From a virus, in IMG/VR virus record IMGVR_UViG_3300025280_000024, positions 38,046 through 102,045 of that record: 64,000 nucleotides of DNA. One strand, written 5' to 3'. The translations under genes and the position numbers were made by a program. The first letter of the stretch is position 1; each line of letters begins with the position of its first letter. Positions 7,924-49,305 of this stretch are shown piece after piece. The notes below the pieces were generated by a model. That model was not told the origin of the DNA, did no database searches, and saw only the letters and a program-made list of their open reading frames with translations.

Positions 7924-7963
7924 TTAAATTTCTTCCTTGTGTTATCAAGCACAACTGGTAGTC

Positions 7964-13951: not shown

Positions 13952-13970
13952 GTTTTCTTTTCCTCCGTAT

Positions 13971-13980: not shown

Positions 13981-14009
13981 TATTACTTTAAAAAAAACTA
14001 TTAAACTTA

Positions 14010-16989: not shown

Positions 16990-16999
16990 TATAAATAGT
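16990..16999 (-). promoter_or_regulatory. recurrent motif ACTATTTATA upstream of sheath gene
   Basis: Exact copy of the ACTATTTATA form, 38-47 bases before the sheath start, the only clear signal in the 72-base gap. Candidate late promoter element. Confidence 0.5.
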
Positions 17000-33919: not shown

Positions 33920-34780
33920 CTACCTTGGTTGAGAAACTAGTTGTACTGGACCTTCATAAAATTCATCAGGCGCGCCGAGAATTGTTCGTGTAAATCGACC
34001 AGATTCAACACTAATCCGTTCGCCAATTTCAGCAAGCTCGCGGAGGTCCGACCGCCCCATCTCTCCACTGTCTATCATCTCATTTATGGATTCATAGGCC
34101 CACCGAATTATGTCAGCGCCTTCTTCTGATGAGTTTTTCAAGTCAACAAGTTCGTCCATTCCTTGAGCGTGTTCCAACCACTCAACTGCTTGAGCGAACA
34201 TTCGCGACTCCCGGGAGCCTCCTATTTCAGATGGGAATTCATCTTGCGCAACAGACAAAAACCCTTTGATCGCATCAAGTCCAGTATCATTTAAAGTAGT
34301 TTCTTCACCGGTGTATCCCCCAGTGCTAATAGCAGCTTCTACTTCACCAGCCAAACCAGCCATTACTGCCGTCACTGCCAACATAACTAAAATAGTTGTG
34401 ATAATCTTACAAAGTGTTTTGTGGGCTGAACAAAACTTTGCAACCTTTTGCATGATGCTCTTTAACACTCCAGCAATCTTATCCAATTGAACGTTTGCCG
34501 TTAACATCATTTTTAAGGCTTGGAATACAAGTTTTTTGAAAAAAGATGCTACTTTCTCAACTGCTTTCGTAAATAACTCTTTTCCCTTCTCGTATCCTCC
34601 CCTGAGAATGTCCAATAAACCTTCATTTAAAACCTGAGAGGCTTCAAATATAACCATTTGTTCCCATTTATTATAGAGTTGTTCTTCCGTTATTAAACCT
34701 TGCTTGTGGTTTTCACAAAGAACTGTAAAGTTGTTTGCTTCCTTCAGAAACTTTCTCCAGTTTTCAAATAACAATTTCAT
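33920..34780 (-). CDS. tagged cassette protein 14: helical membrane protein
   Basis: 286 aa, N-terminal tag MKLLFENWRKFLKE-A (L-K-E at 12-14). The body has amphipathic helices (LLDILRGGYEKGKELFTKAV, KLVFQALKMMLTANVQLDKI) and one clear hydrophobic segment (IITTILVMLAVTAVMAGL, about 127-144). The C-terminal half is soluble and acidic. A head-packaged protein with a membrane segment could enter the host envelope during DNA ejection, as pilot proteins do; this is inference. Its ATG overlaps the TGA of the CCA-adding enzyme gene by ATGA. Last gene of the cassette. Confidence 0.6.
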   Translation of the reverse strand: MKLLFENWRKFLKEANNFTVLCENHKQGLITEEQLYNKWEQMVIFEASQVLNEGLLDILRGGYEKGKELFTKAVEKVASFFKKLVFQALKMMLTANVQLDKIAGVLKSIMQKVAKFCSAHKTLCKIITTILVMLAVTAVMAGLAGEVEAAISTGGYTGEETTLNDTGLDAIKGFLSVAQDEFPSEIGGSRESRMFAQAVEWLEHAQGMDELVDLKNSSEEGADIIRWAYESINEMIDSGEMGRSDLRELAEIGERISVESGRFTRTILGAPDEFYEGPVQLVSQPR

Positions 34781-35973
34781 TTTAAATACCCCACTATCTC
34801 ATCATAAGTATTTCCAAGCTCACCTCTGTGAATGGCAGACAAAACATCTTTTTCTGCCCGCCCTATCTCTTTGCCCTTAAAGCCCATTTGCATAAGTTCT
34901 TGTCCACCAATCTCCAACTCAGATCCTTTTAATGGGAGATCAATAGCGGACATTATTTTCTCTGCTTGCTGATAATAGCCAAGTTGTCTCAGAACGTTCG
35001 CAATCAATGGCATCTTTTCTTTCTGATCGACGGCATATTCATAGACCTCGCCGGCATCTCGTGAAGCTGCTATGGAAATGTCCAAGTACTTGATCATGGC
35101 GTTTGTTGGCCGCATAGAATTAAAATCACCGCCGTTTAGAAAGAAGGCAACAAAGTTTCCATTTATTTTGTCCTCGGGAGTTCCCTCGATCCTGACTATT
35201 TGTGGATCAAAATCATCACCAAACAACCTTCTTCCAATGCCAGTCTCCTCAAGAAGTGAAACAAGCTTGTCACTATTAACAGAACCCTTTGTCCAGGCCT
35301 TATTGAACTCCATAAAAACCCTTTCAGCAGCAACGGTGTCGATTTTATCGATATTGTTTCTAATCGCTGCGAGCGCAGCGGATTCAATGTCAAAGTCAAA
35401 ACGAACAGCAAACTGAAGCGCTCTCATCATTCTCAGCGGATCTTCTGAGAACCTTTCATTTGGATCACCAACGGCCCTAATGGTTTTGTTTTGTAAATCT
35501 TTTTGTCCTCCGAACACATCTATGATATTGCCGGCAGAATCTTTGGCAAGGGCGTTGATTGTAAAATCTCTTCTTCCTAAGTCGTCTTCTATTGTGGCGT
35601 TGGGATCTGTCGTGACATCGACATCTGTGTGCTTTTCTCCTGTCTTTTCTTCGCCAATTCTTGGAATAGCAAAGTCAAATTCTTCTCCATCAATTATAGC
35701 AGTAATAACACCAAAAGATTTGCCTACCAAGCTAACTTTTCCCAAAGGAGTCAGGGCAGTCGCAATCTGATCTAGTGGCAGCTTCCTTATCAAGAAGTCA
35801 ATATCTTTGGATGGAGGGGTATCCGGTAACAACTCGTCTCTCACAGCGCCGCCGACTATATAACTCTCTCCTCCGGCTTGTTCAATAGTAGATTGGATTT
35901 TCTCTATTGTAGCTGGATCAATCGCTTCGTGAAGTCTTGTGAACTTCCACCAATTTTCAAGTAGAAGCTTCAT
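34777..35973 (-). CDS. tagged cassette protein 13: CCA-adding enzyme / poly(A) polymerase family
   Basis: 398 aa. After a diverged tag (MKLLLENWWKFTRLHE-A) come all class II tRNA nucleotidyltransferase signatures: GGAVRD (41-46), D-I-D (57-59), RRDFTIN (134-140), and RFSEDPLRMMRA (174-185). It would repair or build the 3' CCA of tRNAs; a poly(A) polymerase activity cannot be excluded from sequence. The tag suggests packaging in the head and delivery with the genome, where it could restore tRNAs damaged by host defence nucleases. It overlaps both neighbours by 4 bases, beside a 2H phosphoesterase. Confidence 0.85.
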   Translation of the reverse strand: MKLLLENWWKFTRLHEAIDPATIEKIQSTIEQAGGESYIVGGAVRDELLPDTPPSKDIDFLIRKLPLDQIATALTPLGKVSLVGKSFGVITAIIDGEEFDFAIPRIGEEKTGEKHTDVDVTTDPNATIEDDLGRRDFTINALAKDSAGNIIDVFGGQKDLQNKTIRAVGDPNERFSEDPLRMMRALQFAVRFDFDIESAALAAIRNNIDKIDTVAAERVFMEFNKAWTKGSVNSDKLVSLLEETGIGRRLFGDDFDPQIVRIEGTPEDKINGNFVAFFLNGGDFNSMRPTNAMIKYLDISIAASRDAGEVYEYAVDQKEKMPLIANVLRQLGYYQQAEKIMSAIDLPLKGSELEIGGQELMQMGFKGKEIGRAEKDVLSAIHRGELGNTYDEIVGYLK

Positions 35974-36416
35974 CTAAAAATCTCTTGCACTTTCCCACAC
36001 ACTTCAAAAGAACCAATTGGTTGAAAATCTTCTTCCACTAGTTCGTTTGACATTTGCGGTTCGCCGCCCGTTTCTGGGTTTGTCGCTATGGTAATGTGTG
36101 GTAGGCCTAATATTTTCATTGGCATTGGCAAGTCTCCCAAATCAACACGAGCGGTCACGACCATATCATTTTGAGCAAGGCCAACAACTTTCAAACAGCC
36201 GTTATAATCCAGCCAACGAGAAGGCAGACGACGCTTCATTTCTGCTGGTGGTAAAATTGTCATATGGTGTGCGAGAGTTTTCCATCCTTCTGGAACATAT
36301 TCTAAAAGTTTTGAATTATCATCTAGTACGAAAGCCGTGTATGAAACATCTTTGGTTGGTGTCCCAAGGGATATTTCATTCAAGAACTTTCTCCAGTTTT
36401 CAAATAGAAGTTTCAT
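35970..36416 (-). CDS. tagged cassette protein 12: 2H phosphoesterase-like
   Basis: 148 aa, tag MKLLFENWRKFLNE-I. Two H-x-T motifs (HMT at 51-53 in AHHMTILPP, HIT at 107-109 in LPHITIA) are 56 residues apart, the hallmark of 2H phosphoesterases, which open 2',3'-cyclic phosphates or 2'-5' links in RNA or cyclic nucleotides. Phage 2H enzymes include the anti-CBASS protein Acb1, and others act in tRNA repair; either would suit a protein injected at infection. Next to the CCA-adding enzyme gene, with 4-base overlaps on both sides. Confidence 0.65.
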   Translation of the reverse strand: MKLLFENWRKFLNEISLGTPTKDVSYTAFVLDDNSKLLEYVPEGWKTLAHHMTILPPAEMKRRLPSRWLDYNGCLKVVGLAQNDMVVTARVDLGDLPMPMKILGLPHITIATNPETGGEPQMSNELVEEDFQPIGSFEVCGKVQEIFR

Positions 36417-37279
36417 TTATGTCTCTCCAAAACGGGAGTCGGGTTCTGCCTTTTCCATTGTCTCTTCAAATTAGCAAATATCCCGTTCTCTGTGTCGAGT
36501 GCTCTCTTGTATATTCTCTGTCTTAATTTGGGCGAAGTTCTTTCCCAACTGCCCGGGCCGTAAAAGTAGATGAACCATTCCATAAATTCTTCAGGGCTCA
36601 TTGCAACAAATTCGCCATCTTTATAAACAGCACTATCCTTAAACGATTTAATGGCTGCAATGACCCTTGCTTGTATTTCTTCAGTGGAGTCAATATATTC
36701 CTGAGTGTCTGGGTTGAATTGTTTTTGTCCTCCAGGGGCTCTATATGGTTTATGTCCCGACCTAATCGCATTCAAATAATGAGTAAGTTCGTGATCAAGA
36801 ATTTCTGAAACTTCAGAAATCGCTTGTTGAATCTGTGCATGTATCTGTTTCGTTGTGAACTCATCAAACTGTTGTTCTTTTAAGCCAATATGGGGAGCAC
36901 TTAACCGCATGCGGCCTCCGGTGCTCATGTCTGCGGCCGCATCGCCGCCTCGAAGATCCCAAACAACCATTACCTCGAATCTTGTTAATGCCTCCTTAAA
37001 TGTCTCAAAATCAGACATAATGGTCTCATCCTGCGTCATCGCTTGATATTCTTCGAACAATTCCTCATCCACAGATTCTGGTCTTGTTTTAAACAAGTAA
37101 GCGAACGTGCCTCCAGCATCTTCATCAGTCAGGTCCAGGGCCCACTTATAATCTTTAATATCATAAAAATTTGACAGTTCTCTAATGAACTTTAAGAAAA
37201 ATTCAGTAATGTTTTCATAAAGAACATCTGTTTTTCTCTCTTTCAAATACTTCCGCCAGTTTTCAAATAGGAGTTTCAT
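36413..37279 (-). CDS. tagged cassette protein 11: HExxH metallopeptidase-like
   Basis: 288 aa, tag MKLLFENWRKYLKE-R. Zinc peptidase motif HELTH (163-167) in a helix ISEVSEILDHELTHYLN, with a possible third ligand Glu in DSTEEIQARVIAAI about 35-40 residues later. There is no signal peptide, so it acts inside the capsid or in the host after ejection. N-terminal region helical, no other motif. A second, different HExxH protein lies at 43833-44552. Substrate unknown. 4-base overlaps with both neighbours. Confidence 0.6.
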   Translation of the reverse strand: MKLLFENWRKYLKERKTDVLYENITEFFLKFIRELSNFYDIKDYKWALDLTDEDAGGTFAYLFKTRPESVDEELFEEYQAMTQDETIMSDFETFKEALTRFEVMVVWDLRGGDAAADMSTGGRMRLSAPHIGLKEQQFDEFTTKQIHAQIQQAISEVSEILDHELTHYLNAIRSGHKPYRAPGGQKQFNPDTQEYIDSTEEIQARVIAAIKSFKDSAVYKDGEFVAMSPEEFMEWFIYFYGPGSWERTSPKLRQRIYKRALDTENGIFANLKRQWKRQNPTPVLERHK

Positions 37280-38073
37280 CCAATCCTTATCCTAATGGCC
37301 GATGAACGAACCCCATCCAGAGACATCATTAAATCATAAGCATCGTTCTTTAGTTCAGAAAGTTTTGCCAGGTATCCATTTCTTCTTAGCACCTTGAACG
37401 CAAGATTCTCAGCCGAGAACTCACCTCCATCGGTCAGGCCGCATCTTCTCATGTTGCGAATCTTTTCCTTGATTTCGACTGCAGTTTCGTGAGCTTCTTG
37501 ATATTGGCCGGCAGCATACATTTTTTCAGCAGCATCAACCTTCTCCATCATCACTTCTGCTTTCCTGCTGATCGCTTCTTTGTCGAGTTGCACCTTTGTC
37601 TTGGATGGTTTGACCGTCCAATAACCATTCAACACTGAATACATTCCTGTTGAAGCATGTATCTCATTGGCATCTTGAACATAGATTTCAACTTCATGAC
37701 CTTTGATCATAATCTTGTGCATGCGATTCCAACTAGAAGACATATACCTAAAGAACCGATTAACCAAACCAACGTTGTCATCTACTTGAGCCAAATTAAT
37801 AATAATATGCAAATCTATATCTGAATATTTTGTCCAATTGTAGTTTGCTATTGAACCGGTTACTATTATATCAATAATATCAATATTTTTTAACTCTGTT
37901 TTTTCCCAAAAATCTAATGCTATTTCTTTTAACTTCTCTCTAATCTGCGAATTCAATTCGTCGTTCTGCCAAAGGTTTGGTTCAAGAGTGTCTTTTAGTT
38001 GAAGAGTCGAGAAATCAAAATCCTGCAATTCTGTTATATATTTCTTCCAATTTTCAAACAACAGCTTCATCAT
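37276..38073 (-). CDS. tagged cassette protein 10: Pol-beta-type nucleotidyltransferase
   Basis: 265 aa (ATG 38073 or the adjacent ATG 38070). Tag MKLLFENWKKYITE-L (I-T-E). The nucleotidyltransferase signature is GSIANYNWTKYSDIDLHIII: GS at 72-73 and D-I-D at 84-86, with a third acidic strand in HEVEIYVQD. A C-terminal helical domain follows. The pattern is that of MNT-type or 2'-5' oligo/aminoglycoside transferases. Substrate may be RNA, protein or nucleotide. Overlaps the 837-aa gene stop (ATGA). Confidence 0.7.
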   Translation of the reverse strand: MMKLLFENWKKYITELQDFDFSTLQLKDTLEPNLWQNDELNSQIREKLKEIALDFWEKTELKNIDIIDIIVTGSIANYNWTKYSDIDLHIIINLAQVDDNVGLVNRFFRYMSSSWNRMHKIMIKGHEVEIYVQDANEIHASTGMYSVLNGYWTVKPSKTKVQLDKEAISRKAEVMMEKVDAAEKMYAAGQYQEAHETAVEIKEKIRNMRRCGLTDGGEFSAENLAFKVLRRNGYLAKLSELKNDAYDLMMSLDGVRSSAIRIRIG

Positions 38074-40583
38074 GATGTCCTTCTTTTCCTCAACATCTGT
38101 CGCAACTCCTGTTGTTCTGAAGAGGGCGGCGATGACAGCACTATATCGGCATATTTCTCAGCCAATTTTTCATCCTCTGCACTTACCGCCCATGAGTAAC
38201 CCTGTTCTAAATTGAATTTTATTGTTTTAAGCTTATCTCTGAGATCCCAAATATCATGAGATTCTTTTATATATTCGTCTACTTCCTCGAAGGATATTTG
38301 CCCTTTTTTACGAAGAACATCGTGCATACCCAAAATAAGCTTTTCCACTGCTGCGTTTTTTATTCCTAAGCCAGTTTTTGTTTGTTCTTGCATTTGTCTC
38401 TCGAAAAAGATCATTGGTTTTTCCACTTCGGCAATCACATAATGTGGATTTTGTCCCGGCGTCCAAGTTATGTGTTCTAATATAACAGATTTTGCCTTAG
38501 TGTTTATACCTTTATAAACAAAATACGACGGCCAAAGATCACGTTGATCAATTCTTGCATCATAACCCGATGGCGTTGGCCAATGTATTTCTCTTTCTGC
38601 TTCGGAAGTCAAATATTTATAAAGTTCAAATAAACGCTCGCGGCTGTCCATTACGTCGATGGCATCGTGCGTAACAGGAAGTGTAAGCAACGTCCCTCGT
38701 TTGAGAGCCTTAATTTCATCATAACTGGTTATTTTTTCATACTCAACATATTTTAGATTATTGATAAATCCAATCAATTTTTTTATATATTCATTTTTTT
38801 TGTATTCTGGATCCGTCGCGACTTTAATAATATGAGCATAATATAATGTAGCGTTTTTCATTATTTCATAATCCAAGTTATCGTGACCCGGATATCGAAA
38901 CTCGACATATCCCCTACTGTCAATATACTTGATATTAAATCCAAGATTCTTTCCGCCAGAATGCCTCGTTGAATATTCAACAACATCGGAAAGAGTTTTG
39001 TCAAGTATGTCAAAGTTCTTTTCAATAAAATTCCCTAATATTGATTCTCTATTGGGTCTGGAGGAGGGTTTATAACGAGCAACCTCTTTGCTTATCTGTG
39101 TTGTGATTGCTTCAATAACTGTCTGTTTGATGGGGCCGGCCCAACTACTTCCTTGGCGTGTCTCGAAGCCTTTTGTCGCAAAATCACGATTCAAAAACAA
39201 CAATGCTTTCATTAAGTTGTAATCTTTGTTTGATCTTCCTTCATCATCCAAATAACCAACGTTGGTGTGAAGGCCGGTTCTTCGATCCATATAAAAATTG
39301 TCTTGATTATCATAATCTTCAAAAAATAATTCCAAGAAATCCAAAGATTCTTGCAGGCCTTCGATATATGGTGGATTTGACATTGAAAACTCAACATGAG
39401 GATCTGGGCTCAACGTAGGATCCGGTGTATAATCCAATTGATGAGCATATTTGTTCATAAAATTTGGAAGATATCTTTGCATAAGCCCTATCATGCTGCT
39501 CTCGTCGAACTCTTCATCGCCATACTCGTCATAAATATGGCCATATTCCTCCTCATACCGATGTTCAATTTCAAAACCCATATCAGCTAGATAGCTGATG
39601 GGATCTCTGCGATATTCCTCCCACTGGCTTTGGGCTTCTTCTTCCATATATGTTTCGGCTTTGCGCTCAACCATGCTAGCAATCTCTTTTAAATGTTCGG
39701 AATCAGACTCTTTAAAATTGCTTGACAAATTCCAAGCATCGTTCATCACGCCCCACCTCGTGTCTAATTCCAAAATCTCTCCTTCAAGCAGTGAATCGAC
39801 ATCAAATAGCGCATCAGAGAACTCATCTCCCATTTCGATCCATCCGAAAAAGTCTTCCAAAGAAATCAGCATATCTTCGCGCTGTCGCCACAGTGGAAAT
39901 CCCGAAATATCAGATTTAAGATCAAAAACATATCTTCTAAACAGTTCAGCATTATCAATTCCTGATAATATATGAACAATCTTATCAGTTTCCTCTTCAG
40001 GATCCAAATCCAATCCAAGTTGAACTGCTTTCACTTCCGTAAATTCTGCCAGTTCTTCTTTAATCGCAGGGATGCTTAACAACAGCTCAATAAAAGCATT
40101 TGCTTCTGGAGAACCATCTCTTGAAATACTCTCAATCGCCGTATCATATAACTTCCGGCCGTCATCTGAATTCCTAACAGAGATTTCAAATTTTACAATC
40201 TGGTTACTTGCTGCTTCATCGGGCGGATATCCCATATTCGGAGCAATCTCGTCGGCAATATATCGATCAACCAAACCATCACCAGTGGCATCATACTCGT
40301 CAAGAAGAGAGTCCTCCACAAAACTTTCGAAATCTCTTTGTCCTGCGTCTTCAGAAAAATGATCAAAACTTATATAATTGCTAGCATATTCTTCCAAACT
40401 CGGACGTTCAGATTCGGCGCCGCCGAGCACTGCTGATTTATTAGAAAGAAGCTCAATCTCATATGAAATGGTAAACCGATCACTATCAGCCATCAGAACT
40501 TCTTTGTCTGCTTGTTTGAACTCTTGTATTAGTTCTTTTTCTTCTGCGATATACTTTCGCCAATTTTCAAATAATAGCTTCAT
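38070..40583 (-). CDS. tagged cassette protein 9: large amidoligase-like protein
   Basis: 837 aa, tag MKLLFENWRKYIAE-E. After the tag, FTISYEIELLSN resembles the opening G/E-x-E-x-E strand of amidoligases of the glutamine synthetase-like COOH-amine ligase group; TGLHTNVGYLD in the middle matches their GLHxHV motif, followed by a helix with ALLFLNRDFA and the strand SRGYVEFRYPGHD. A long acidic helical region separates the first and second parts (about 60-380). The family makes or trims peptide-like amide bonds; a peptidoglycan or protein target is possible. Assignment rests on three short motifs. Overlaps both neighbours by 4 bases. Confidence 0.5.
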   Translation of the reverse strand: MKLLFENWRKYIAEEKELIQEFKQADKEVLMADSDRFTISYEIELLSNKSAVLGGAESERPSLEEYASNYISFDHFSEDAGQRDFESFVEDSLLDEYDATGDGLVDRYIADEIAPNMGYPPDEAASNQIVKFEISVRNSDDGRKLYDTAIESISRDGSPEANAFIELLLSIPAIKEELAEFTEVKAVQLGLDLDPEEETDKIVHILSGIDNAELFRRYVFDLKSDISGFPLWRQREDMLISLEDFFGWIEMGDEFSDALFDVDSLLEGEILELDTRWGVMNDAWNLSSNFKESDSEHLKEIASMVERKAETYMEEEAQSQWEEYRRDPISYLADMGFEIEHRYEEEYGHIYDEYGDEEFDESSMIGLMQRYLPNFMNKYAHQLDYTPDPTLSPDPHVEFSMSNPPYIEGLQESLDFLELFFEDYDNQDNFYMDRRTGLHTNVGYLDDEGRSNKDYNLMKALLFLNRDFATKGFETRQGSSWAGPIKQTVIEAITTQISKEVARYKPSSRPNRESILGNFIEKNFDILDKTLSDVVEYSTRHSGGKNLGFNIKYIDSRGYVEFRYPGHDNLDYEIMKNATLYYAHIIKVATDPEYKKNEYIKKLIGFINNLKYVEYEKITSYDEIKALKRGTLLTLPVTHDAIDVMDSRERLFELYKYLTSEAEREIHWPTPSGYDARIDQRDLWPSYFVYKGINTKAKSVILEHITWTPGQNPHYVIAEVEKPMIFFERQMQEQTKTGLGIKNAAVEKLILGMHDVLRKKGQISFEEVDEYIKESHDIWDLRDKLKTIKFNLEQGYSWAVSAEDEKLAEKYADIVLSSPPSSEQQELRQMLRKRRTS

Positions 40584-42820
40584 TGCCTTCTTCCCAAAAG
40601 TATTTTTATTCCTTTTTTTCTCTTCTTGTTTTCATCGAGGCCTAGGGCTCGGGCGCGCTCGGGGAGTTCTTCTTTTTTTGATTCAAGTGTTTTCACAACT
40701 GCCTTGTTAAGTAGTTCGTCTATTGCCTCTTTGACTGCCTCAGAAAGAATATCATAGTTCTCATCAAAGTACTCAACAAACTCTGCTATGACTGCCGACT
40801 GAGTTTCATCCAATTCACCAGTTACTTCAACACTCATCTGAGTTTTGATTTTCTTTTCTTTGAGCGAAGCAGAGGTCATGTATGGATTAAATGTGAATGC
40901 TGTTGCTGGAAGCATCCTTTTTATTTCTGGTGCTTCAATACCTGGAATTTGCAGCTGTTTCTCTGCTTCGGCATAGGCTCGGACCATAAGAGCGTCCAAT
41001 TTATCATAAAGAAGGTCGTCCGCCCTACTGATGAGTTTAATCTTGAAGAAGTATACGATCTTTCTCTGTATATCCTTGTAATGCTCCATAACACGATCGA
41101 TCCAATCCGGGTTCCACTCGCCGGTGTCTTCAGTACCAGACTTCGCAAGATGCTCTAACCCCATCAACTCTATTATTTCTTTAGCTGCCTCATCGAAAAT
41201 AGTAATATTTTCATAAACAAATTGTACAGAAATTTCTACGCGTCTTCCTTCGGCGCTAACCACGAAATGCTTAAACTCTTTCTCTGCGAGTTTTGCTTTA
41301 AGTTGTCCAATAGGTTCGTCTGATATATCTAAAGCCCCTTCTTCAATGAATAACTTGATTAAATCTTCGCGAATATTATCATATTCCGAATCAATTTTAG
41401 ACATGGAATCCACAAAATTTCGAAAACCTTCGATACCCACTGACTCGTACTCGTCTGGATTTATGTCTATTCTCACTTCGTTTTGATAAACCTCCAAGTA
41501 ATCCGGATAAATGTAATAAGCATCCAGCAGCGATCTCATTTCATCTTCTAAATCAAAATCCTCTAAATCCTCAGGTTGGAACTTGGGGCCAAAATCTAAA
41601 TCTCCAAAGTCAAACCCAAAACCACCACTCCAGTATTCATTCTCATCATAATCGCGGTGAATATAGACGTGTTGTAATCCAGCCTCATCCTCAATCCTTT
41701 GGTACTCTTCTTCCGATGGGCCGGCAGGATTCATCTCAAAGTGGTGTTGTGCTTCAGTATCAATAGTGTTCCATATGTCTAATACTTCGTTATCCCAAAC
41801 TTCTTCCAGATCGTCGTCGGGTTCTAATCCAAGTTTATCGAGTGTGGCCAATATCTCTGCCTGCTGTTCTGGATATTCTTCGCGAAAATCATCTTCCAAG
41901 TGTGGTGTCTGAACGTCTCGGTCTTTTTCATACCTTTGAATATACTCAGTATAATTAATAGCAAGTTTATAGGCGTCAACAAAGTCTTCTCCAAGAAGGT
42001 TCATTGCAATAATCTCTGTGACCTCCTCGTTGTCCATTGAATTATCTGCAGCATCATAAGCTTCCTCAAATTCACCATGATCACCATAAACCAAAGCTAA
42101 CTTATGATATTGGCGATAAGAACTGGTCCAAAAATTCTTTTTGTTCTTCATAAAAAGGAAATAGAATCCTTTGCCTTCGGCGGTAATACTGTTGAAATAG
42201 TTCTCTGACTGTGTCGCTGAAATACACCACTTTGTTCCCATGCCCCAATAGCAGGATGCGCCGGTAGTAAGTGGGCGAACCAACAAGAAATTGTCGTCTT
42301 TCATTATTATTTCGGAGTTTTGTATTGCTTCTTGTTTTTGTTGTTCTTTTTTCGCCTTCTCTTCATCTTTTTCCTTTTTTCGGCTTTCGCCATAACGAAC
42401 AACAGCGTTCAAAGTATCTAAATTTGGTACTTTTTGGAGATCTTTGAACTCAGCATTGGCACCTTCGAGGTATTTGCTATACAAATGATACTTCTCAATT
42501 TGATTCGCGACTTTCATCGCGATACCTTCCGAACTAAATTCATTATCTTGTTGTGTCATTATCGGCAGGTTTTCCAACTTGCCAACATCTTTCGCACCTC
42601 CGCTGCGTCTCTCGCTGATTTCTTTGTCCAGGATAAGTGCAGCCGGTATAAGATACTTTTGATTTCCAGAAGGATCCTTTTCAATGAGAATATCAAGCAG
42701 GCCTTTCTTGGTTAACCAGGGATACTTCTTCTTTGCGTCTTGTATTCTGCCTTCTATAAGCAGTTGTTCTTCGTTGAGAAGGTTTATGTATTTTCGCCAG
42801 TTTTCAAATAGGAGTTTCAT
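40580..42820 (-). CDS. tagged cassette protein 8: large protein with G-x-GT-x-WC domain
   Basis: 746 aa. Tag MKLLFENWRKYINLLNE-E, with L-N-E three residues later than usual. Around residues 180-200, CYWGMGTKWCIS is followed by YFNSITAEGKGFYFLFMKN; the same G-x-GT-x-WC domain occurs in the two repeat proteins at 44638 and 46470, where it also follows ~180 residues. The rest is acidic and helical. The conserved Cys, Trp and Gly suggest an enzyme or binding fold that I cannot name. The C-terminus is Lys/Arg-rich. Function unknown. Confidence 0.55.
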   Translation of the reverse strand: MKLLFENWRKYINLLNEEQLLIEGRIQDAKKKYPWLTKKGLLDILIEKDPSGNQKYLIPAALILDKEISERRSGGAKDVGKLENLPIMTQQDNEFSSEGIAMKVANQIEKYHLYSKYLEGANAEFKDLQKVPNLDTLNAVVRYGESRKKEKDEEKAKKEQQKQEAIQNSEIIMKDDNFLLVRPLTTGASCYWGMGTKWCISATQSENYFNSITAEGKGFYFLFMKNKKNFWTSSYRQYHKLALVYGDHGEFEEAYDAADNSMDNEEVTEIIAMNLLGEDFVDAYKLAINYTEYIQRYEKDRDVQTPHLEDDFREEYPEQQAEILATLDKLGLEPDDDLEEVWDNEVLDIWNTIDTEAQHHFEMNPAGPSEEEYQRIEDEAGLQHVYIHRDYDENEYWSGGFGFDFGDLDFGPKFQPEDLEDFDLEDEMRSLLDAYYIYPDYLEVYQNEVRIDINPDEYESVGIEGFRNFVDSMSKIDSEYDNIREDLIKLFIEEGALDISDEPIGQLKAKLAEKEFKHFVVSAEGRRVEISVQFVYENITIFDEAAKEIIELMGLEHLAKSGTEDTGEWNPDWIDRVMEHYKDIQRKIVYFFKIKLISRADDLLYDKLDALMVRAYAEAEKQLQIPGIEAPEIKRMLPATAFTFNPYMTSASLKEKKIKTQMSVEVTGELDETQSAVIAEFVEYFDENYDILSEAVKEAIDELLNKAVVKTLESKKEELPERARALGLDENKKRKKGIKILLGRRQ

Positions 42821-42821
42821 C

Positions 42822-43163
42822 TTATTTCCTCACCAATTTAGGATTCAACACAACAATCGAAGGCTCTTCTCCGTTGGGTTCTATAACTTTAACAATATCA
42901 TATCCTTTAAACATTTCCTGTGGTTGCCAAATTTCTTGAAACTCTTGCCACCAAAAAACTTTGGGATAAACGCTTGCTTCAGACAAATCAATTTCAACTT
43001 CAGATACTTGCCCATCTTTATGTTGTGCTGCATATTTTTCAGCGTATACTCTGTCTTTTGAATAGAATGTTCCAATACGAGTAGATAAAAAGTCTTTTCC
43101 GCCTCCGTGATAATATGTTTCTTCTTTCAAGAACTCTCGCCAATTTTCAAATAGGAGTTTCAT
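42822..43163 (-). CDS. tagged cassette protein 7: small ADP-ribosyltransferase-like protein
   Basis: 113 aa, tag MKLLFENWREFLKE-E. Immediately after comes TYYHGGGKDF, then GTFYSKDRVYAEKYA and VSEVEIDLSEASVYP, the order of a short ART-type core (YHG ... F-x-S/T ... A-x-x-YA ... strand). T4 packages the ADP-ribosyltransferase Alt, so an injected ART is plausible by analogy. The final strand (EPSIVVLNPKLV) would hold the third motif, but I see no certain catalytic Glu. Weak assignment. Confidence 0.45.
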   Translation of the reverse strand: MKLLFENWREFLKEETYYHGGGKDFLSTRIGTFYSKDRVYAEKYAAQHKDGQVSEVEIDLSEASVYPKVFWWQEFQEIWQPQEMFKGYDIVKVIEPNGEEPSIVVLNPKLVRK

Positions 43164-43831
43164 ATATTTTCCTCTTTGGGCGAATTGTCGTCCGGACCTG
43201 TTAGTTTCGTAATGAAATCAAGTAAGGCATTATCAATGTCATCTGATAAATTATTATCCATCATATCAAACATCATTTGACTAGCCTGTATATATGTTAT
43301 GTCTGATGCTCTATAAAGATTCCAAAGTTTACTATCAAAATCCTCTCTATTTTGGAAGTTTTTAATTAAATCACCAACGCCTGTTTCAAATATTTCCCAA
43401 GCGCCAGGAATAGATTGAAGACTAGCTGGTCGTGGATGGCCTGATCCGACAGCGTCGGACGCTTCGGCCACCGGGTGTCCTTTTTGAGAAGAAATCATAA
43501 TCACAGGCACATCCAGATTACACTTGAGAGCCGCCGTCAATCTGTGCCTACCTTCAACGGTATAATCTGCGTCAAGATCAATTATGATTGGTTTTTTTAT
43601 CTCGCCATCAGCACAAATCTGGTCAATCTGTTCTTGATCGGTCGGTTCACCTTCTCGTCTTACTTTGTCTTTAAGCCAAAATTTTATATCTTCTTTGTTA
43701 GAAGCCAGTATTGTGTCTCGCTCCAATTTAACATCTTCTATGTTTCTACCGAGTTCGTTCAAGTAAGCGCGAACTTCGTCCATTGCATTCTCTCTTAGAA
43801 ATTTTCGCCAGCTTTCAAACAACAACTTCAT
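43160..43831 (-). CDS. tagged cassette protein 6: ParB/Srx-like nuclease-fold protein
   Basis: From ATG 43831 (the frame continues upstream without a better start), 223 aa. Tag MKLLFESWRKFLRE-N. A ParB-type core follows: a strand PIIIDLDADYTV leads into EGRHRLTAAL (Gly-Arg-His-Arg at 94-97), as in the GRHR/GGHRR motif of ParB-N domains, which act as CTPases, DNA-nicking enzymes or sulfiredoxins. The C-terminal part is helical. Overlaps the ART-like gene by 4 bases and starts one base after the previous stop. Confidence 0.65.
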   Translation of the reverse strand: MKLLFESWRKFLRENAMDEVRAYLNELGRNIEDVKLERDTILASNKEDIKFWLKDKVRREGEPTDQEQIDQICADGEIKKPIIIDLDADYTVEGRHRLTAALKCNLDVPVIMISSQKGHPVAEASDAVGSGHPRPASLQSIPGAWEIFETGVGDLIKNFQNREDFDSKLWNLYRASDITYIQASQMMFDMMDNNLSDDIDNALLDFITKLTGPDDNSPKEENI

Positions 43832-43832
43832 A

Positions 43833-44552
43833 TTATCTGTCCCAGTCAATCTCTGCGTGAGGAAAGCGAGACTGCATATAGTAGCGCCAATATTCTCTAA
43901 TCTTACTCATTATCGGACCCAGTTCCTCTTCGGTGTATCCATAATGTAATCCCGTACTATAAATATTCATCAACTCTTGATCTAATACTTCGCCGGCGGG
44001 TTCCTTAAACATCTTTGCTTTCTTATAAATACCAACGACATGAGCTTTTGTTTCTGATTCGTTGGTAAAATATGCTTCTGCGCTTTCAAGAGTGTTCCAA
44101 ACATCTCCCGTAGGAATCTTTTTTTGAATCTTCATCAACATTTCAGTGGGTTGCGTGCTGTGTTCCAGTTCGTGTCTCAATGATTCTTTAATCTCTGGAA
44201 TCAATTCGGAAAATATTGAGTTTTCATAACCTATCGGCAAGATAACATCCACAACAATTTCTGAATTTTTTCTTTGTTCTTCTGTTGCGTCCAAGTCAAA
44301 CTCGTATTTTGCATGAGCATAAACTAGATCTCCTTCCAACATATTAACATAGACATCTTTGACATATTCTAAATTATCCAAAATATGTTCAATATCTAAT
44401 TTAAAATAAGCTTGTTTGGCTTGATTGAAAGCATCTTTGACATCTGAATCTTTCAAAGCGTTTACTATTTCTCTGGAGATTAGGGTCGTATATTGTTCTA
44501 GTTCTCGGCCTTCTTTCAAATATCGTCGCCAACTTTCAAACAGCAGCTTCAT
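43833..44552 (-). CDS. tagged cassette protein 5: second HExxH metallopeptidase-like
   Basis: From ATG 44552 with a GAGGAAAG site, 239 aa; the longer frame to 44690 only reads through repeat remnants. Tag MKLLFESWRRYLKE-G. HELEH (127-131) lies in a helix IKESLRHELEHSTQP, and a later helix SAEAYFTNESETKAHVVGIY could supply a Glu ligand. Weak similarity of layout to cassette protein 11, but the sequences differ. Likely a soluble zinc peptidase delivered with the DNA; substrate unknown. Confidence 0.6.
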   Translation of the reverse strand: MKLLFESWRRYLKEGRELEQYTTLISREIVNALKDSDVKDAFNQAKQAYFKLDIEHILDNLEYVKDVYVNMLEGDLVYAHAKYEFDLDATEEQRKNSEIVVDVILPIGYENSIFSELIPEIKESLRHELEHSTQPTEMLMKIQKKIPTGDVWNTLESAEAYFTNESETKAHVVGIYKKAKMFKEPAGEVLDQELMNIYSTGLHYGYTEEELGPIMSKIREYWRYYMQSRFPHAEIDWDR

Positions 44553-44637
44553 ATTCTTTCCTCGATCGATACGGTTTTCCGTTGAGAAACCACTGTTGTG
44601 ATCCCTTCGGCTGCATCGTAGGTGGTTTTGTTGTGTT
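44536..44637 (-). pseudogene. in-frame 3' remnant of the repeat gene beyond its stop
   Basis: Reading on in the frame of the 44638-45894 gene past its TGA gives a last repeat-like unit (QQWFLNGKPYRSRKEYEAAV) ending at TGA 44538-44536. The paralogue at 46470 ends with a similar segment (WYLNGKRLSRKEYEAAI) that overlaps its next gene in the same way. The ancestral end has therefore been cut off by an in-frame stop after a degenerate unit. Confidence 0.65.
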
Positions 44638-45894
44638 TCATTGTTGCTGCAGTTTCCCGTTGAGATACCACTGTTTTTTTCCATTGGCACGTATCACAGC
44701 AGGACCATCTTCACGATGTCGTTTCCCGTTGAGCCACCACTGTTTTGTTCCATCGGGCCCTATCTCAGCAGGCCCATCCTCGCGATGTAGTTCCCCGTTG
44801 AGATACCAGAACTTTGATCCATCAGTATATATCACAGCAGGCCCATCCTCGCGATGTAGTTCCCCGTTGAGATACCAACCTTTTGTTCCATCAGCATGTA
44901 TCAAAGCAGGACCATCTTCGCGATGCCGTTCTCCGTTGAGATACCACCATTTTGATCCATTAGCATGTATCAAAGCAGGTCCATCCTCGCGATGTAGTTC
45001 CCCGTTGAGCCACCACACTTTTTGGGCACTAGTGGACACATACACTCTTCCATCATCATATTCTCTATAATCGTACTGTTCAACTTTTTTCAAAATAGGT
45101 TTGGGCAGGTGCTTATTTCCTCTGAGTCTTGAAACCAGTTTGGCTAATAGTTCACCGTCGATGGCGAGGTCGTCTACGTTCATGTATTGTCTTGAACCAA
45201 AGTGTATCTGAACATCTTCTGAAGAATCTGTTTTGTGTTTGAAGATAATCAGTGGATCTTCTGCAGAGTGGTATTGTTCATAGAAATCTAAACCAGGAGC
45301 AGCAGTACACCATTGTGTTCCTTTTCCAAGCTCGCAAGCAGCACCTTTGTTGGTTGGAATATAGACAACGTATTCTTCATCTTCATGAATCTTGTGTTTT
45401 CCCTGTCCAGCATCTAAATACCGTTTTTTTGCAAGGTGTTTTCCGTAGGGTTCTCTAGCATCGTCGACAATTGATTGAAGTTGATCGATTGAATCAATCT
45501 TTGCCAGTTGTTTAACAGAAAGAAGCCTGTCTAAGTTTTGTTTCTTTATTTGAAAGAAGGTTTCAAGAGCAGCGCGATCATCGGGCGTCAACACTATAAG
45601 GATTTGATAATCGCGAATAAACAACGAAACGAGCCAATTAAGTGCTTCTGCTTTGTCTTTTTCATCAATATCTCTAGGGATAAAAGCTAATAGAGTAACG
45701 GCGGCGGATCCAACTGTTTCTTTTGAGGCGATATCGAAGAGGCGCTCATCTTCAATAACTTGGTTATAGTTTTCCACTGCTCTCTTGAATTTCTTTGATT
45801 CGAAGCGTTTTTTAACATCTTCCATTCGAACTTCTTGAATAAGTTCTGATTGTTCATTCAAGAACTTTCGCCAGTTTTCAAATATCAGCTTCAT
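44638..45894 (-). CDS. tagged cassette protein 4: repeat protein with G-x-GT-x-WC domain (shortened copy)
   Basis: 418 aa, tag MKLIFENWRKFLNE-Q. Residues 20-180 helical; a domain with CELGKGTQWCTAAP near residue 190 shared with two other cassette proteins; then five 23-residue repeats of the type WYLNGELHREDGPA (MORN-variant/YwqK-like pattern) and a broken sixth. Such repeats form a beta sheet stack and usually bind partners. Close paralogue of 46470-47855 (seven full repeats). The stop is premature compared with the paralogue. The tag suggests packaging; role unknown. Confidence 0.65.
   Translation of the reverse strand: MKLIFENWRKFLNEQSELIQEVRMEDVKKRFESKKFKRAVENYNQVIEDERLFDIASKETVGSAAVTLLAFIPRDIDEKDKAEALNWLVSLFIRDYQILIVLTPDDRAALETFFQIKKQNLDRLLSVKQLAKIDSIDQLQSIVDDAREPYGKHLAKKRYLDAGQGKHKIHEDEEYVVYIPTNKGAACELGKGTQWCTAAPGLDFYEQYHSAEDPLIIFKHKTDSSEDVQIHFGSRQYMNVDDLAIDGELLAKLVSRLRGNKHLPKPILKKVEQYDYREYDDGRVYVSTSAQKVWWLNGELHREDGPALIHANGSKWWYLNGERHREDGPALIHADGTKGWYLNGELHREDGPAVIYTDGSKFWYLNGELHREDGPAEIGPDGTKQWWLNGKRHREDGPAVIRANGKKQWYLNGKLQQQ
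44641..45015. repeat. 69-base tandem repeats, five full units
   Basis: Five 69-base units plus a partial one encode the 23-residue WYLNG...HREDGPA repeats. Units differ at scattered positions, mostly third bases. In-frame and coding, so not a CRISPR array. Confidence 0.9.
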
Positions 45895-46486
45895 TTAATA
45901 TATTCTCCAATTCTTGAATGGTCTTAGCCGTGTCTGTATGCAATATAGCAATTCCTCCTGCTTCAGTCCATGGAACTGTATTCTTTGAGAAATCGTCAAT
46001 TAAAATGTTTGGTTTCCCATTTGTGACTGCCCAACGATATTTGTCGTGTGACATATAAATTTTCTCAGGTGGAGGAGGGTTTAAATTATTATCTATCCAT
46101 TCTTGTTTGCCAATCTCTGACCCATAACCCATTGGAGCAGTCAAAACGTATGGATTGTATGGTGCAATATGATTCCACAACTGTTTGCCATCGGGCATCC
46201 ACTCTAAATCTCTCCAAAAGTTTGCATGATGTTGTAATTCTTTGTACATAAACCTTTTGACAACTTTGTTACCACCAATGTCTTCACCATCAACATAGTC
46301 ACGATCGATTTCTGCTTTTAACTCTTCGGCTTCGCCACTTTGTAGTTTATTGGTTATATAATTTACGGCACCCCCAATAAAATCAACAAGCACACCGTCC
46401 ATATCACAATAAATTTGATATGTCTGAGTTCGTTCAGAGGGCACATAGTTCAGATATTTGCGCCAATTTTCAAATAGCAGCTTCAT
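45878..46486 (-). CDS. tagged cassette protein 3: HAD phosphatase, 5'-nucleotidase-like
   Basis: From ATG 46486 (203 aa); the upstream frame only reads repeat DNA. Tag MKLLFENWRKYLN; the usual L-x-E is absent here, the only such case in the cassette. HAD motifs: DMDGVLVDF (28-36; nucleophile and acid Asp), LTAPMG (motif II), and NILIDDFSKN (motif III/IV acidic pair). This layout is that of 5'(3')-deoxyribonucleotidases. It could recycle nucleotides or remove phosphates from RNA ends. Overlaps the repeat gene by 17 bases. Confidence 0.7.
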   Translation of the reverse strand: MKLLFENWRKYLNYVPSERTQTYQIYCDMDGVLVDFIGGAVNYITNKLQSGEAEELKAEIDRDYVDGEDIGGNKVVKRFMYKELQHHANFWRDLEWMPDGKQLWNHIAPYNPYVLTAPMGYGSEIGKQEWIDNNLNPPPPEKIYMSHDKYRWAVTNGKPNILIDDFSKNTVPWTEAGGIAILHTDTAKTIQELENILNEADI

Positions 46487-47855
46487 ATTCTTTCCTCGAT
46501 AGACGTTTCCCGTTGAGATACCACACTTTTGATCCATCAGCACCTATCAAAGCAGGTCCATCTTCACGATGCAGTTTCCCGTTGAGATACCACACTTTTG
46601 ATCCATCAGCATATATCACAGCAGGTCCATCTTCACGATGCTGTTTCCCGTTGAGAAACCACTCTTTTGTTCCATTAGTATATATCACAGCAGGTCCATC
46701 TTCACGATGTCGTTTCCCGTTGAGATACCAGCGTTTTGATCCATTGGCAACTATCACAGCAGGTCCATCTTCGCGATGTCGTTCCCCGTTGAGCCACCAC
46801 TCTTTTGTTCCATCAGCACCTATCAAAGCAGGTCCATCTTCACGATGCAGTTTCCCGTTGAGATACCAGTGTTTTGTTCCATTGGCACGTATCACAGCAG
46901 GTCCATTTTCACGATGTCGTTTCCCGTTGAGATACCACGATTTTGTTCCATTAGCATATATCACAGCAGGTCCATCTTCACGATGCAGTTTCCCGTTGAG
47001 ATACCACTGTTTTTTTCCATCAATGGACAAGTATACTCTTCCATCATCATATTCTCTATAATCGTACTGTTCAACTTTTTTCAAAATAGGTTTGGGCAGG
47101 TGCTTATTTCCTCTGAGTCTTGAAACCAGTTTGGCTAATAGTTCACCGTCGATGGCGTAGTCGTCTACGTTCATGTATTGCTCAGAACCAAAGTGTATTT
47201 GAACGTCTTTTGAAGAATCTGTTTTGTGTTTGAAGATGATCAGTGGATCTTCTGCAGAGTGGTATTGTTTATAGTAATCTAAACCAGGAGCAGCAGTACA
47301 CCATTGTGTTCCTTTTCCAAGCTCGCAAGCAGCGCCTTTGTTGGTTGGGATGTAGACAACGTATTCACTATCTTCGTGAATCTTGTGTTTCCCTTGTCCA
47401 GCATCTAAATATCGTTTTTTTGCAAGGTGTTTTCTGTAGGGTTCCCTAGCATCATCGACAATTGATTGAAGTTGATCGATTGAATCAATCTTTGCCAGTT
47501 GCTTAACAGAAAGAAACCTGTCTAAGTTTTGTTTCTTTATCTGAAAGAAGGTTTCAAGGGCAGCGCGATGGAGGGGAGCGAATATTTCCGCAGAGATGGA
47601 TAGGGATCCACGAATAAACAGTGAAATGATCCAGTTAAGTGCTTCTGCTTTGTCTTTTTCATCAATGTCCTCGGGGACGCAACTTAATAAAGTGTCAATG
47701 ATGAATTCAATTGAGAAATCAGTGTTTTGTTCCGCTGCTGCTCTCTTGAATTTCTTTGATTCGAAGCGTTTTTTAACATCTTCCATTTGAACTTCATGAA
47801 TAAGCTCTGTCTGTTCATTCAAGAACTTTCGCCAGTTTTCAAATATCAGCTTCAT
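46470..47855 (-). CDS. tagged cassette protein 2: repeat protein with G-x-GT-x-WC domain (full copy)
   Basis: 461 aa, tag MKLIFENWRKFLNE-Q. Same layout as 44638-45894: helical N-terminal region, CELGKGTQWCTAAP domain, then seven full 23-residue repeats (WYLNGKLHREDGPA type) and a terminal half unit ending SRKEYEAAI. N-terminal ~280 residues are nearly identical to the paralogue in long stretches, so the duplication is recent. The repeat count differs (seven against five), which suggests expansion/contraction. Overlaps both neighbours by 17 bases. Function unknown; likely a partner-binding protein carried in the head. Confidence 0.65.
   Translation of the reverse strand: MKLIFENWRKFLNEQTELIHEVQMEDVKKRFESKKFKRAAAEQNTDFSIEFIIDTLLSCVPEDIDEKDKAEALNWIISLFIRGSLSISAEIFAPLHRAALETFFQIKKQNLDRFLSVKQLAKIDSIDQLQSIVDDAREPYRKHLAKKRYLDAGQGKHKIHEDSEYVVYIPTNKGAACELGKGTQWCTAAPGLDYYKQYHSAEDPLIIFKHKTDSSKDVQIHFGSEQYMNVDDYAIDGELLAKLVSRLRGNKHLPKPILKKVEQYDYREYDDGRVYLSIDGKKQWYLNGKLHREDGPAVIYANGTKSWYLNGKRHRENGPAVIRANGTKHWYLNGKLHREDGPALIGADGTKEWWLNGERHREDGPAVIVANGSKRWYLNGKRHREDGPAVIYTNGTKEWFLNGKQHREDGPAVIYADGSKVWYLNGKLHREDGPALIGADGSKVWYLNGKRLSRKEYEAAI
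46473..47006. repeat. 69-base tandem repeats, seven full units
   Basis: Seven 69-base coding units plus a partial terminal unit, homologous to the array at 44641-45015. Blocks of near-identity between non-adjacent units suggest recombination between repeats. Confidence 0.9.
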
Positions 47856-48384
47856 ATGAACCTTCCTTTTCTGCTAATAGAACGACATCTTGTATGCTGG
47901 AAGAATCCCAAATACACCCCGAAGCCACGTCCCAACCATAATACCAATCCGACTTCATTCTTCGGTTCCAGTTATAGGGGCATATTTCTATTCCTCCATA
48001 ACCTTCCTTTTGTACCAGTTCCCAATCAATCAATCGACCAAACGGTGATTGAATACCGAACCCGGCTTCAAGTTCCTCGAAACCAGCATCATCTGATATT
48101 TTAAGAATCTTACCATCTGTTTTAACCTCGTATAGATAACTTGACTCTTCAAGCCAATTCGGCATTTCGCTGCGAACCCACTTGACCCAAGCATCGCCGC
48201 AGCCATACCATAGCCCTTGTGGTTTCATCATAGGGTGTGGGGGCTTTTTCTGTTGAACGTTGCGAAACTCTGTATAAGGTGTCTTAGAAATGAATACTTT
48301 TTGTTCCGGAGTAATGTGATGCCCCCAGAGTTCTGACTGCTCCTTTATCAAGAACTTTCGCCAGTTTTCAAATATCAGCTTCAT
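47839..48384 (-). CDS. tagged cassette protein 1: ADP-ribosyltransferase-like
   Basis: 181 aa, first gene of the cassette. Tag MKLIFENWRKFLIKE-Q (I-K-E one residue late). The body has KPQGLWYGCGDAWVKW, then YEVKTDGKILKISDD, YGGIEICPY and WYYGWDVASGCIWDSSSI, which resemble the conserved pieces of a group of ART-like phage and bacterial proteins (K-P-x-GLW start and a Trp/Asp-rich end). No firm catalytic triad can be assigned. Head-packaged ARTs are known in T4 (Alt). A repeated motif ACTATTTATA lies 21-30 bases upstream, so the whole cassette may be driven from here. Confidence 0.5.
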   Translation of the reverse strand: MKLIFENWRKFLIKEQSELWGHHITPEQKVFISKTPYTEFRNVQQKKPPHPMMKPQGLWYGCGDAWVKWVRSEMPNWLEESSYLYEVKTDGKILKISDDAGFEELEAGFGIQSPFGRLIDWELVQKEGYGGIEICPYNWNRRMKSDWYYGWDVASGCIWDSSSIQDVVLLAEKEGSYEADI

Positions 48385-48404: not shown

Positions 48405-48414
48405 TATAAATAGT
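48405..48414 (-). promoter_or_regulatory. recurrent motif ACTATTTATA upstream of the tagged cassette
   Basis: Exact copy, 21-30 bases before the first cassette ATG. No other copy interrupts the 14-gene cassette, so all 14 genes probably share this control. Confidence 0.5.
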
Positions 48415-48436: not shown

Positions 48437-48841
48437 TTAAAAAGAAAGAAGGGACTTTTTGATTACGGCTAGTTCATCTGGTTGAAGTGTTGTGTCCCAT
48501 TCTCCTATCCTATCTATATCGACCCAGGTAAAACCTGTGTGTTCATGACTCAGTTTAACCTGTTCGCCAGAAAACTTATCTGTGGTATAAAAATATACCA
48601 TTCCATAGCTGTGATTGGTTTTTTGTATCAGTGGTGTTAAATCATCTGGATCTACTTTCAATCCGGTTTCTTCGAAAGTTTCTCTAGCAGCTGCTTGTTC
48701 TGGAGTTTCGCCTTTCTCAACGTGGCCACCAGGAGGACCCCACGTTTCTGGCTTCCAGCTGGATTCCCTGCTTCTCAATAGAATAAGAATCTTGCCATCT
48801 TTGACAAGAATGACGTTTGCACCTTTTTTAATTTCTGACAT
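48437..48841 (-). CDS. NUDIX hydrolase
   Basis: 134 aa from ATG 48841 with an AAGGAT site; ATG 48862 overlaps the previous stop but has no ribosome site. The NUDIX box GGHVEKGETPEQAAARETFE, completed by ETGL, is complete (G-x5-E-x7-RE-x2-EE-x-G). It hydrolyses nucleoside diphosphates linked to another group: damaged nucleotides, caps, ADP-ribose or dinucleotides. It lacks the capsid tags of its neighbours, so acts in the infected cell. An NAD- or nucleotide-metabolic role is a guess. Confidence 0.88.
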   Translation of the reverse strand: MSEIKKGANVILVKDGKILILLRSRESSWKPETWGPPGGHVEKGETPEQAAARETFEETGLKVDPDDLTPLIQKTNHSYGMVYFYTTDKFSGEQVKLSHEHTGFTWVDIDRIGEWDTTLQPDELAVIKKSLLSF

Positions 48842-48858
48842 ATCGATCCTTATTTTGA

Positions 48859-49305
48859 TCATCTGATTTCGCTAATTGCAAATGCGATACCAATTGTCGT
48901 CGCAACGCCAATAATAACACCGCCAGCAAACCACCAACTACTATAATCTCCATCGTCTGCCTCCAAAGCTATTTCTGTAAGTCTCTCGATCTCGTCATCT
49001 TTGATTTCCATTATGGAATTATATCGTTCTTGTAGTGCCTGCAGGCTCGCAACGGTGGAATCAAGCGATAAGCTGCACATCGCCTGTTGTCGGTCTTCTG
49101 CGTATTGAATGCGAAGTTCACACTCTATTTGATTTGCTTCTTGTTCAGCGAGCATCTGTGCGACTGCTGCTGGATTTAGGAGGGTTCCTGTGAATGGTGC
49201 CGGCTCTCCCTCTCTAATGTCTGTTATGACTGGCTCTTCGTCTTGTGCCCAGACAAGGGGTTGGAAGGCCATCAAACAGATAAGGAAGGGAATTAGTAGT
49301 CTCAT
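48859..49305 (-). CDS. signal-peptide protein with C-terminal membrane segment
   Basis: 148 aa. N-terminal signal peptide (MRLLIPFLICLMAFQPLVWA) ending AQ, a central helical region with two Cys (QIECELRIQYAEDRQQAMCS) and coiled-coil character, and a C-terminal hydrophobic helix (WWFAGGVIIGVATTIGIAFA) about residues 122-141. Envelope-located. Together with the holin-like and membrane-anchored coiled-coil proteins downstream in this gene group it could belong to a lysis or envelope module, for example a spanin-like protein; that is inference. Confidence 0.55.
   Translation of the reverse strand: MRLLIPFLICLMAFQPLVWAQDEEPVITDIREGEPAPFTGTLLNPAAVAQMLAEQEANQIECELRIQYAEDRQQAMCSLSLDSTVASLQALQERYNSIMEIKDDEIERLTEIALEADDGDYSSWWFAGGVIIGVATTIGIAFAISEIR

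Follow-up and report, generated by a model that had tools for sequence, protein, structure and literature searches.

Why would a phage place the same short N-terminal sequence on 14 neighbouring proteins that are otherwise mostly unrelated? The question is raised by a stretch of 64,000 nucleotides (nt), hereafter the window, which is part of a record of 102,045 bases from an uncultured virus, a marine T4-like phage (IMG/VR record IMGVR_UViG_3300025280_000024). Inspection of the open reading frames (ORFs) shows 14 consecutive genes on the minus strand (33920-48384) with N-terminal variants of MKLLFENWRKFL, or MKL[LI][FL]E[NS]W, a sequence that we call the tag. A first-pass annotation had proposed that this cassette encodes effectors packaged in the phage head. 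Our results support this view: the cassette is very probably an enlarged, often enzymatic locus of T4-type internal proteins (IPs) that would deliver proteins of counter-defence and takeover. The sequences show a conserved tag, an [LI]xE motif resembling a cleavage site, a gp21-type protease with L-x-E at its other expected substrates, a match with the residues of T4 that direct proteins into the head, a location beside head genes, and turnover of the bodies; packaging, cleavage, injection, and counter-defence are inferred.

In this reading, the 14 genes would form one operon, probably late, of precursor proteins, each opening with a short amphipathic propeptide that targets the prohead (MKLLFENWRKFLxE). 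During head assembly the propeptide would bind the prohead core, and the gp21 protease would cut after [LI]xE, which would free the body of the protein within the head. When the phage next infects, the bodies would be delivered along with the DNA and would act ahead of phage gene expression, countering host defences and aiding takeover through nucleotide, RNA, and protein chemistry.

The tag is placed at the ORF start or a few codons inside it in all 14 genes, all on the minus strand, which confirms the observation of the first-pass annotation. A sequence resembling a ribosome-binding site adjoins the Met of the tag in 43160-43831, 43833-44552, and 45878-46486, so that the true starts of these genes are at the tag; the gene at 37276 probably starts at 38070. 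With starts adjusted to the tag, the overlaps at the junctions are, in order of transcription, 17, 17, 17, -85, -1, 4, -1, 4, 1, 4, 4, 4, and 4 bases, i.e. 10 of 13 junctions overlap, as had been said of most of them. The strict tag pattern occurs 14 times in the source record and the reversed pattern 0 times, which excludes chance. An independent record (G046) carries the complete cassette with 14 tags and identical spacing, which rules out an assembly artefact. The [LI]xE motif, previously noted in 13 of the 14 tags, is at residues 12-14 in ten of them and displaced by one to three residues in the other three, to residues 13-15 (47839), 14-16 (34777), and 15-17 (40580).

To place the tag in a broader context, we scanned IMG/VR with a degenerate DNA pattern for residues 1-11, which imposed W8 and F/Y11 and left positions 12 and 14 unconstrained. 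The pattern was found in at least 119 stretches, and the matches listed, together with the window, gave 194 non-redundant tagged proteins. The motif [LI]xE is exactly at residues 12-14 in 144 of them (74%), compared with 1.1% per position in the bodies, and 84.5% have [LIVMF]-x-E there. Among the 50 proteins without [LI]xE at this position, 46% have it shortly downstream, against a background of 13%. The IPI protein of T4 likewise has a displaced cleavage site. Seven other large tagged records have 1-5 strict tags and 4-11 core motifs, compared with 0-2 in reversed-pattern controls. The record with the cassette has 14 strict tags in its 102 kb. The system is therefore common, and the cassette is the largest array of it that we saw.

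The core of the tag also matches residues of known function in T4. Mutagenesis of T4 IPIII (MKTYQEFIAE) assigned residues 4 and 7 to targeting and residues 8 and 10 to processing (PMC9026906). When the sequences are aligned at the Glu, these key residues correspond to W8, F/Y11, L/I12, and E14 of the tag. Since W8 and F/Y11 were imposed by our search, the fair test is provided by homologues of the bodies that lack the strict tag. Their N-termini contain [WF]..[FYLM][LIVM].E in 41 of 79 cases, compared with 3.8% of 477 other ORFs. Some of these leaders are nearly T4-like (MKAFKEYLEE), and others diverge before the core (MNKWNKFLTE, MTPNWKEFLTE). A looser tag opens a gene of 701 amino acids (aa) outside the cassette (G000 13927-16032, window -24118 to -22013), which begins with MLMNFSTRKWNKFLIGE; its distant homologues have W..FLxE leaders (L032 1913 family).

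Is there a protease that could cut such a site? Transcriptionally downstream of the cassette there are two small genes followed by gp17, gp20, gp21, and gp23, all of T4 type:

31392-32966, minus strand: gp17, large terminase (Pfam Terminase_6N, E 3e-14)
29455-31389, minus strand: gp20, portal (Pfam Portal_T4, E 1e-76)
27120-27731, minus strand: gp21-type prohead protease (S77; Pfam Peptidase_S77, E 3e-28), with LTE in its own N-terminal propeptide
21202-23019, minus strand: gp23, major capsid protein, in which the site equivalent to that of T4 cleavage reads LKE|AS (bases 22843-22851)

The Pfam match thus bears out the gp21 homologue that had been reported at 27120-27731. A tag found mainly in genomes without such a protease had been named as a possible refutation; gp21, scored above the Pfam cut-off, is present in 9 of the 9 tagged contigs of at least 180 kb, and shorter tagged fragments often do not include that region. 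The gp21 and gp23 of the lineage are less than 60% identical to those of any cultured phage. All 76 gp21 relatives have L-[TSN]-E in the propeptide, and the T4 cleavage position reads LRE or LKE in all 35 captured gp23 relatives; one tagged relative with an insertion at this position of gp23 still has LTE before AS. Hence, gp21 and gp23 of the clade keep L-x-E at their predicted processing sites. Genes directly beside gp21 have tag-like N-termini in 7 of the gp21 loci, in the area of the T4 core genes 67, 68, and 22. Several relatives carry cassettes with other bodies at the equivalent site, 7-9 kb upstream of gp21 and upstream of the terminase. A related layout is seen in a cultured relative, Flavobacterium phage vB_FspM_immuto (L258), where two adjacent genes upstream of the terminase (7132-8432; immuto26A_194 and _195) have the common leader NF[ND]L[RK]xFLxENKLT, of a related F..F-L-x-E type with LTE and LVE, and the gene after gp21 (14742-14969; immuto26A_202) has ...WQAKFLKE.

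What do the tags carry? The genes of the cassette are, in order of transcription:

47839-48384, minus strand: tagged gene 1, 181 aa, MKLIFENWRKFLIKE, relative of phrog_8582
46470-47855, minus strand: tagged gene 2, 461 aa, LNE site, GTQWC-type domain and MORN/DUF6745-like repeats
45878-46486, minus strand: tagged gene 3, 202 aa, NT5C-type deoxynucleotidase (Pfam NT5C, E 7e-6)
44638-45894, minus strand: tagged gene 4, 418 aa, LNE site, paralogue of tagged gene 2
43833-44552, minus strand: tagged gene 5, 239 aa, LKE site, HELEH, zincin-like by motif only
43160-43831, minus strand: tagged gene 6, 223 aa, LRE site, ParB-like EGRHRLTAA by motif only (phrog_7527, E 0.0016)
42822-43163, minus strand: tagged gene 7, 113 aa, LKE site, module shared with two distantly related phages (see below)
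40580-42820, minus strand: tagged gene 8, 746 aa, LNE at residues 15-17, GTKWC-type domain as in genes 2 and 4
38070-40583, minus strand: tagged gene 9, 837 aa, IAE site, no match in family searches
37276-38070, minus strand: tagged gene 10, 264 aa, ITE site, pol-beta-type nucleotidyltransferase (NTP_transf_2, E 6e-5; phrog_36119, E 4e-48)
36413-37279, minus strand: tagged gene 11, 288 aa, LKE site, HELTH, zincin-like by motif only
35970-36416, minus strand: tagged gene 12, 148 aa, LNE site, similar by motif to 2H phosphoesterases (H-x-T ... H-x-T)
34777-35973, minus strand: tagged gene 13, 398 aa, LHE site, family of tRNA nucleotidyltransferases (CCA-adding enzyme; Pfam PolyA_pol, E 2e-25)
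33920-34780, minus strand: tagged gene 14, 286 aa, LKE site, hydrophobic segment

The first-pass annotation described the bodies as unrelated. This holds for most of them, but those at 40580, 44638, and 46470 have a GTxWC domain in common, and the C-termini of the paralogues 44638-45894 and 46470-47855 carry tandem repeats of ~23 residues (WYLNGK.HREDGPA.I). The H-x-T pair of gene 12 is conserved in most of its aligned homologues, and gene 13 also matches CCA-adding enzymes in PDB (E 6e-36). Motifs had suggested an ADP-ribosyltransferase (ART) for genes 7 and 1, but we did not call it because the models were poor (mean predicted local distance difference test, pLDDT, of 57 and 40) and a PDB fold search with the predicted structure gave no match under E 0.001. 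Searches of Pfam, PHROG, and NCBIfam found no homologue of the T4 Alt ADP-ribosyltransferase among the cassette proteins, and the NCBIfam search, made with ten of them, gave no match at all. On another tagged contig (G048), an ART-PolyVal-like tagged gene adjoins the module of gene 7 (E 1.7e-4, below the cut-off).

The bodies found on other contigs include NUDIX, protein kinase, S-adenosylmethionine (SAM) lyase, HNH, HD, DEDDh nuclease, nucleotide kinase, DnaJ, transglutaminase-like, GDSL, and HAD proteins, with weak matches to ART-PolyVal and GNAT. Among the matches listed, together with the window, the 191 bodies long enough for comparison fall into 100 single-linkage families, of which 68 are singletons. 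This is in line with the earlier prediction that metagenomes would hold many other bodies in gp21-bearing phages. The bodies are larger than the T4 internal proteins and, as also anticipated, more numerous and more often enzymatic. Some body families also occur untagged, such as NT5C and NUDIX (the latter at 48437-48862). Other phages use SAM lyases and protein kinases as weapons early in infection. The T4 proteins Ip1-3 have only the leader in common, and all three are injected and inhibit type IV restriction enzymes (PMC12373910). On these grounds, and by analogy, our best guess is that counter-defence and takeover are the role of the set of bodies as a whole, not of any single one.

Alternatively, the tag could be a signal that binds the prohead core or scaffold, and the tagged proteins could be assembly factors or parts of the core, which would be lost by degradation or expulsion and would not reach the host cell by injection. 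The tag-like genes that adjoin gp21 among core genes would fit this explanation. Yet some 100 unrelated and often enzymatic families, among the matches listed, with rapid turnover, are unlike assembly factors, and the T4 proteins that have such a leader (IPI-III, Alt) are injected. We thus regard this possibility as quite improbable.

Several observations weigh against the head-packaged effectors that we favour. Gene 3 (45878) has the sole tag of the cassette without [LI]xE and reads LNYVPSE; its homologues on other contigs do have the motif. The tag was not found in cultured phages, where tblastn retrieved only unrelated replication proteins of Streptococcus phages, and a pattern also demanding E14 gave no match in GTDB genomes. 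We found no virion proteomics for any tagged phage. Most bodies match no curated family, and for these counter-defence is therefore a guess. The bodies are acidic, with a median isoelectric point (pI) of 5.0 and 17% above 7.5, compared with 9.0-9.7 for the T4 IPs; Alt, at 6.3, is not basic either. Retention of acidic bodies in the head would therefore need another mechanism, perhaps as for Alt. Finally, bodies of 746-837 aa would need to traverse the portal, a passage that is made by other large proteins such as T4 Alt (682 aa) and P1 DarB (250 kDa).

How does the cassette compare with known systems? The closest are the variable IP loci of T-even phages, for which at least 10 Ips are reported (PMC12373910, relaying Repoila et al. 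1994). Like the cassette, IPI-III have a short leader on unrelated bodies, with aromatic-x-x-aromatic-[LI]-x-E, and their loci are variable, exchange bodies, and lie in genomes with a gp21-type protease. They differ in that the T4 capsid-targeting sequence has 10 residues, whereas the tag has 14 and another sequence, and in that the IPs are small and basic, whereas the cassette has 14 genes in one putative operon and bodies that are acidic and in many cases enzymatic. T4 Alt, which is packaged, is likewise a large enzyme that is not basic, and gp21 removes its short N-terminal propeptide, but its leader (MELITELFDE) is unlike the tag. The cassette would work like the T-even loci and is probably a divergent relative of them. 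We class it as a variant of the T4-type IPs instead of a classical IP locus because the bodies are not small and basic, as Alt also is not.

Other systems share part of this design. The Dar proteins of P1 (DarA, DarB) are head-packaged and act against restriction, which resembles the role proposed here, but they depend on another protease and head system and have no family of short tags across many genes (PMC9024508). In phiKZ and SPN3US many head-packaged proteins have N-terminal propeptides that a gp21-related protease cuts after Glu, but these mostly exceed 100 residues and there is no single short common tag (PMC5694885). Polyvalent proteins, in the account that PMC7824862 gives of Iyer et al. 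2017, are injected sets of enzymatic domains, e.g. ART and GNAT, but they are large multidomain proteins, whereas the cassette encodes many small proteins with separate tags.

Are the modules exchanged, and does the tag play a part in it? The DNA of gene 7 is 91% identical to a gene in G047 and G048, which are distantly related phages; backbone genes in common with G047 have 26-51% protein identity and 64-71% DNA identity. The match begins at the ATG of the tag in both phages and ends, in G048, within the tag of the next gene. In G047 (L148 1501-2181), the body of gene 7 runs in frame into a putative diverged second copy, 25% identical and without a second tag. Overall, 92 of the 132 matching blocks with a tag start at the tag. 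Such starts are expected when upstream neighbours differ, and hence they are consistent with crossovers in tag DNA but do not prove them. Genome-specific dialects of the tag are weak, since tag DNA identity is 80.3% within and 77.7% between contigs (permutation mean 77.8%, standard deviation 0.6), a small excess that may reflect composition.

The DNA of the tag has further peculiarities. It overlaps the upstream gene in 147 of 278 tags, and does so solely by 4 nt (99 tags), 17 nt (30), or 1 nt (18). The stop of the upstream gene is the TGA of ATGA in the 4-nt overlaps and a TGA at bases 15-17 in the 17-nt ones, which demands a codon 5 ending in T. At codon 5, Leu is CTT in 70 of 72 tags, compared with 24% in the bodies and 23% where Glu follows, and Phe is TTT in 162 of 168, compared with 75% in the bodies; the P-values of these biases are inflated by the shared ancestry of the tags. 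The bias persists where the 17-nt stop is not used (87 of 88 tags with 4-nt overlaps), while synonymous codons at positions 3 and 12 vary, and on this basis the DNA of the tag seems to be constrained in its own right. Avoidance of TCGA was considered as the cause of the bias and rejected because its effect is too weak. In bases 10-18 of the tag (e.g. at the start of 42822-43163), the third base is mostly A in codon 4 and T in codon 5 (NTA-YTT-GAA), a pattern that differs strongly from codon usage in the bodies and preserves the out-of-frame TGA. A built-in stop for the upstream module is one explanation of the constraint; others are homology for recombination and an effect at the level of RNA.

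It is conceivable, if rather doubtful, that the tag is a seam with a double purpose, where the peptide would serve for entry into the head and the DNA as a joint for exchange, such that recombination between tags would swap effector modules among distant phages. Equally tentatively, the tag could be joined behind almost any module, as it provides a start codon together with TGA in both other frames.

The limited set of overlaps and the constraint at codon 5 could also be taken to mean that the tag is a leader for translation or expression, a conserved start region that would ensure that every module of a long operon is translated and would play no part in targeting. This is very improbable. 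The tag is conserved as protein sequence, whereas synonymous codons match at ~60% between unrelated tags. Residues 12 and 14 are fixed and, if displaced, often reappear downstream, homologues retain W..[FY][LIV].E behind dissimilar start sequences, and a site of gp21 type would be superfluous for a mere leader. As for a signal that directs proteins to the host membrane or to the phage replication compartment of the producing cell, the short and amphipathic tag (mean hydrophobic moment 0.60, compared with 0.29 in body segments) would suit it, but [LI]xE, the co-occurrence with gp21, and the match with the T4 targeting residues would be left without explanation, and we give it hardly any credence.

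When would head-packaged effectors be made? A promoter-like motif precedes the cassette and occurs at another gene:

48405-48414, minus strand: ACTATTTATA, before the cassette
16990-16999: ACTATTTATA, at the tail sheath candidate

This motif had been described as present only before the first gene of the cassette, but the 102-kb record contains four copies, so it is not specific to the cassette. All four are on the minus strand, ~20-46 nt before a gene of the same strand, and ACTATTTATAA, with one mismatch allowed, has 10 matches in the window compared with 2.2 expected. The presence of ACTATTTATA at both the cassette and the tail sheath candidate suggests that the cassette may be expressed late, with the structural genes. 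In that orientation, ACTATTTATA differs from the late promoter sequence of T4.

Several genes that adjoin the cassette or gp21 have a second leader in common, MK[IL]TKxQLKQIIKEEL:

26667-27107: gene with the second leader
49306-49704: gene with the second leader
50443-50694: gene with the second leader
50698-51297: gene with the second leader
51310-51612: gene with the second leader
55174-55500: gene with the second leader

In related loci, 36 genes with this leader flank gp21. Certain domains follow the tag in one protein and the second leader in another (L008 3060 and L033 4502, 73% identical; L086 11580 and L033 2449). The second leader is possibly another head-directed signal.

The principle proposed here is already known from T-even phages. 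The novelty lies in the tag, whose letters a literature search found in no paper, in the lineage, which is uncultured, in the bodies, which are numerous and often enzymatic, and in the role that tag DNA may have as a seam. Proteins injected by phages are documented for very few phages, nearly all of them isolates. A tag that comes with a protease and a readable cut site allows one to search sequences of uncultured phages for likely injected effectors. The body families, at least some 100 and most without a known function, are candidate inhibitors of unfamiliar bacterial defences. If our reading is true, the tag would be a second capsid-targeting sequence, beside that of T4, for loading proteins into phage heads, and the locus would be a natural case of effector cassette exchange.

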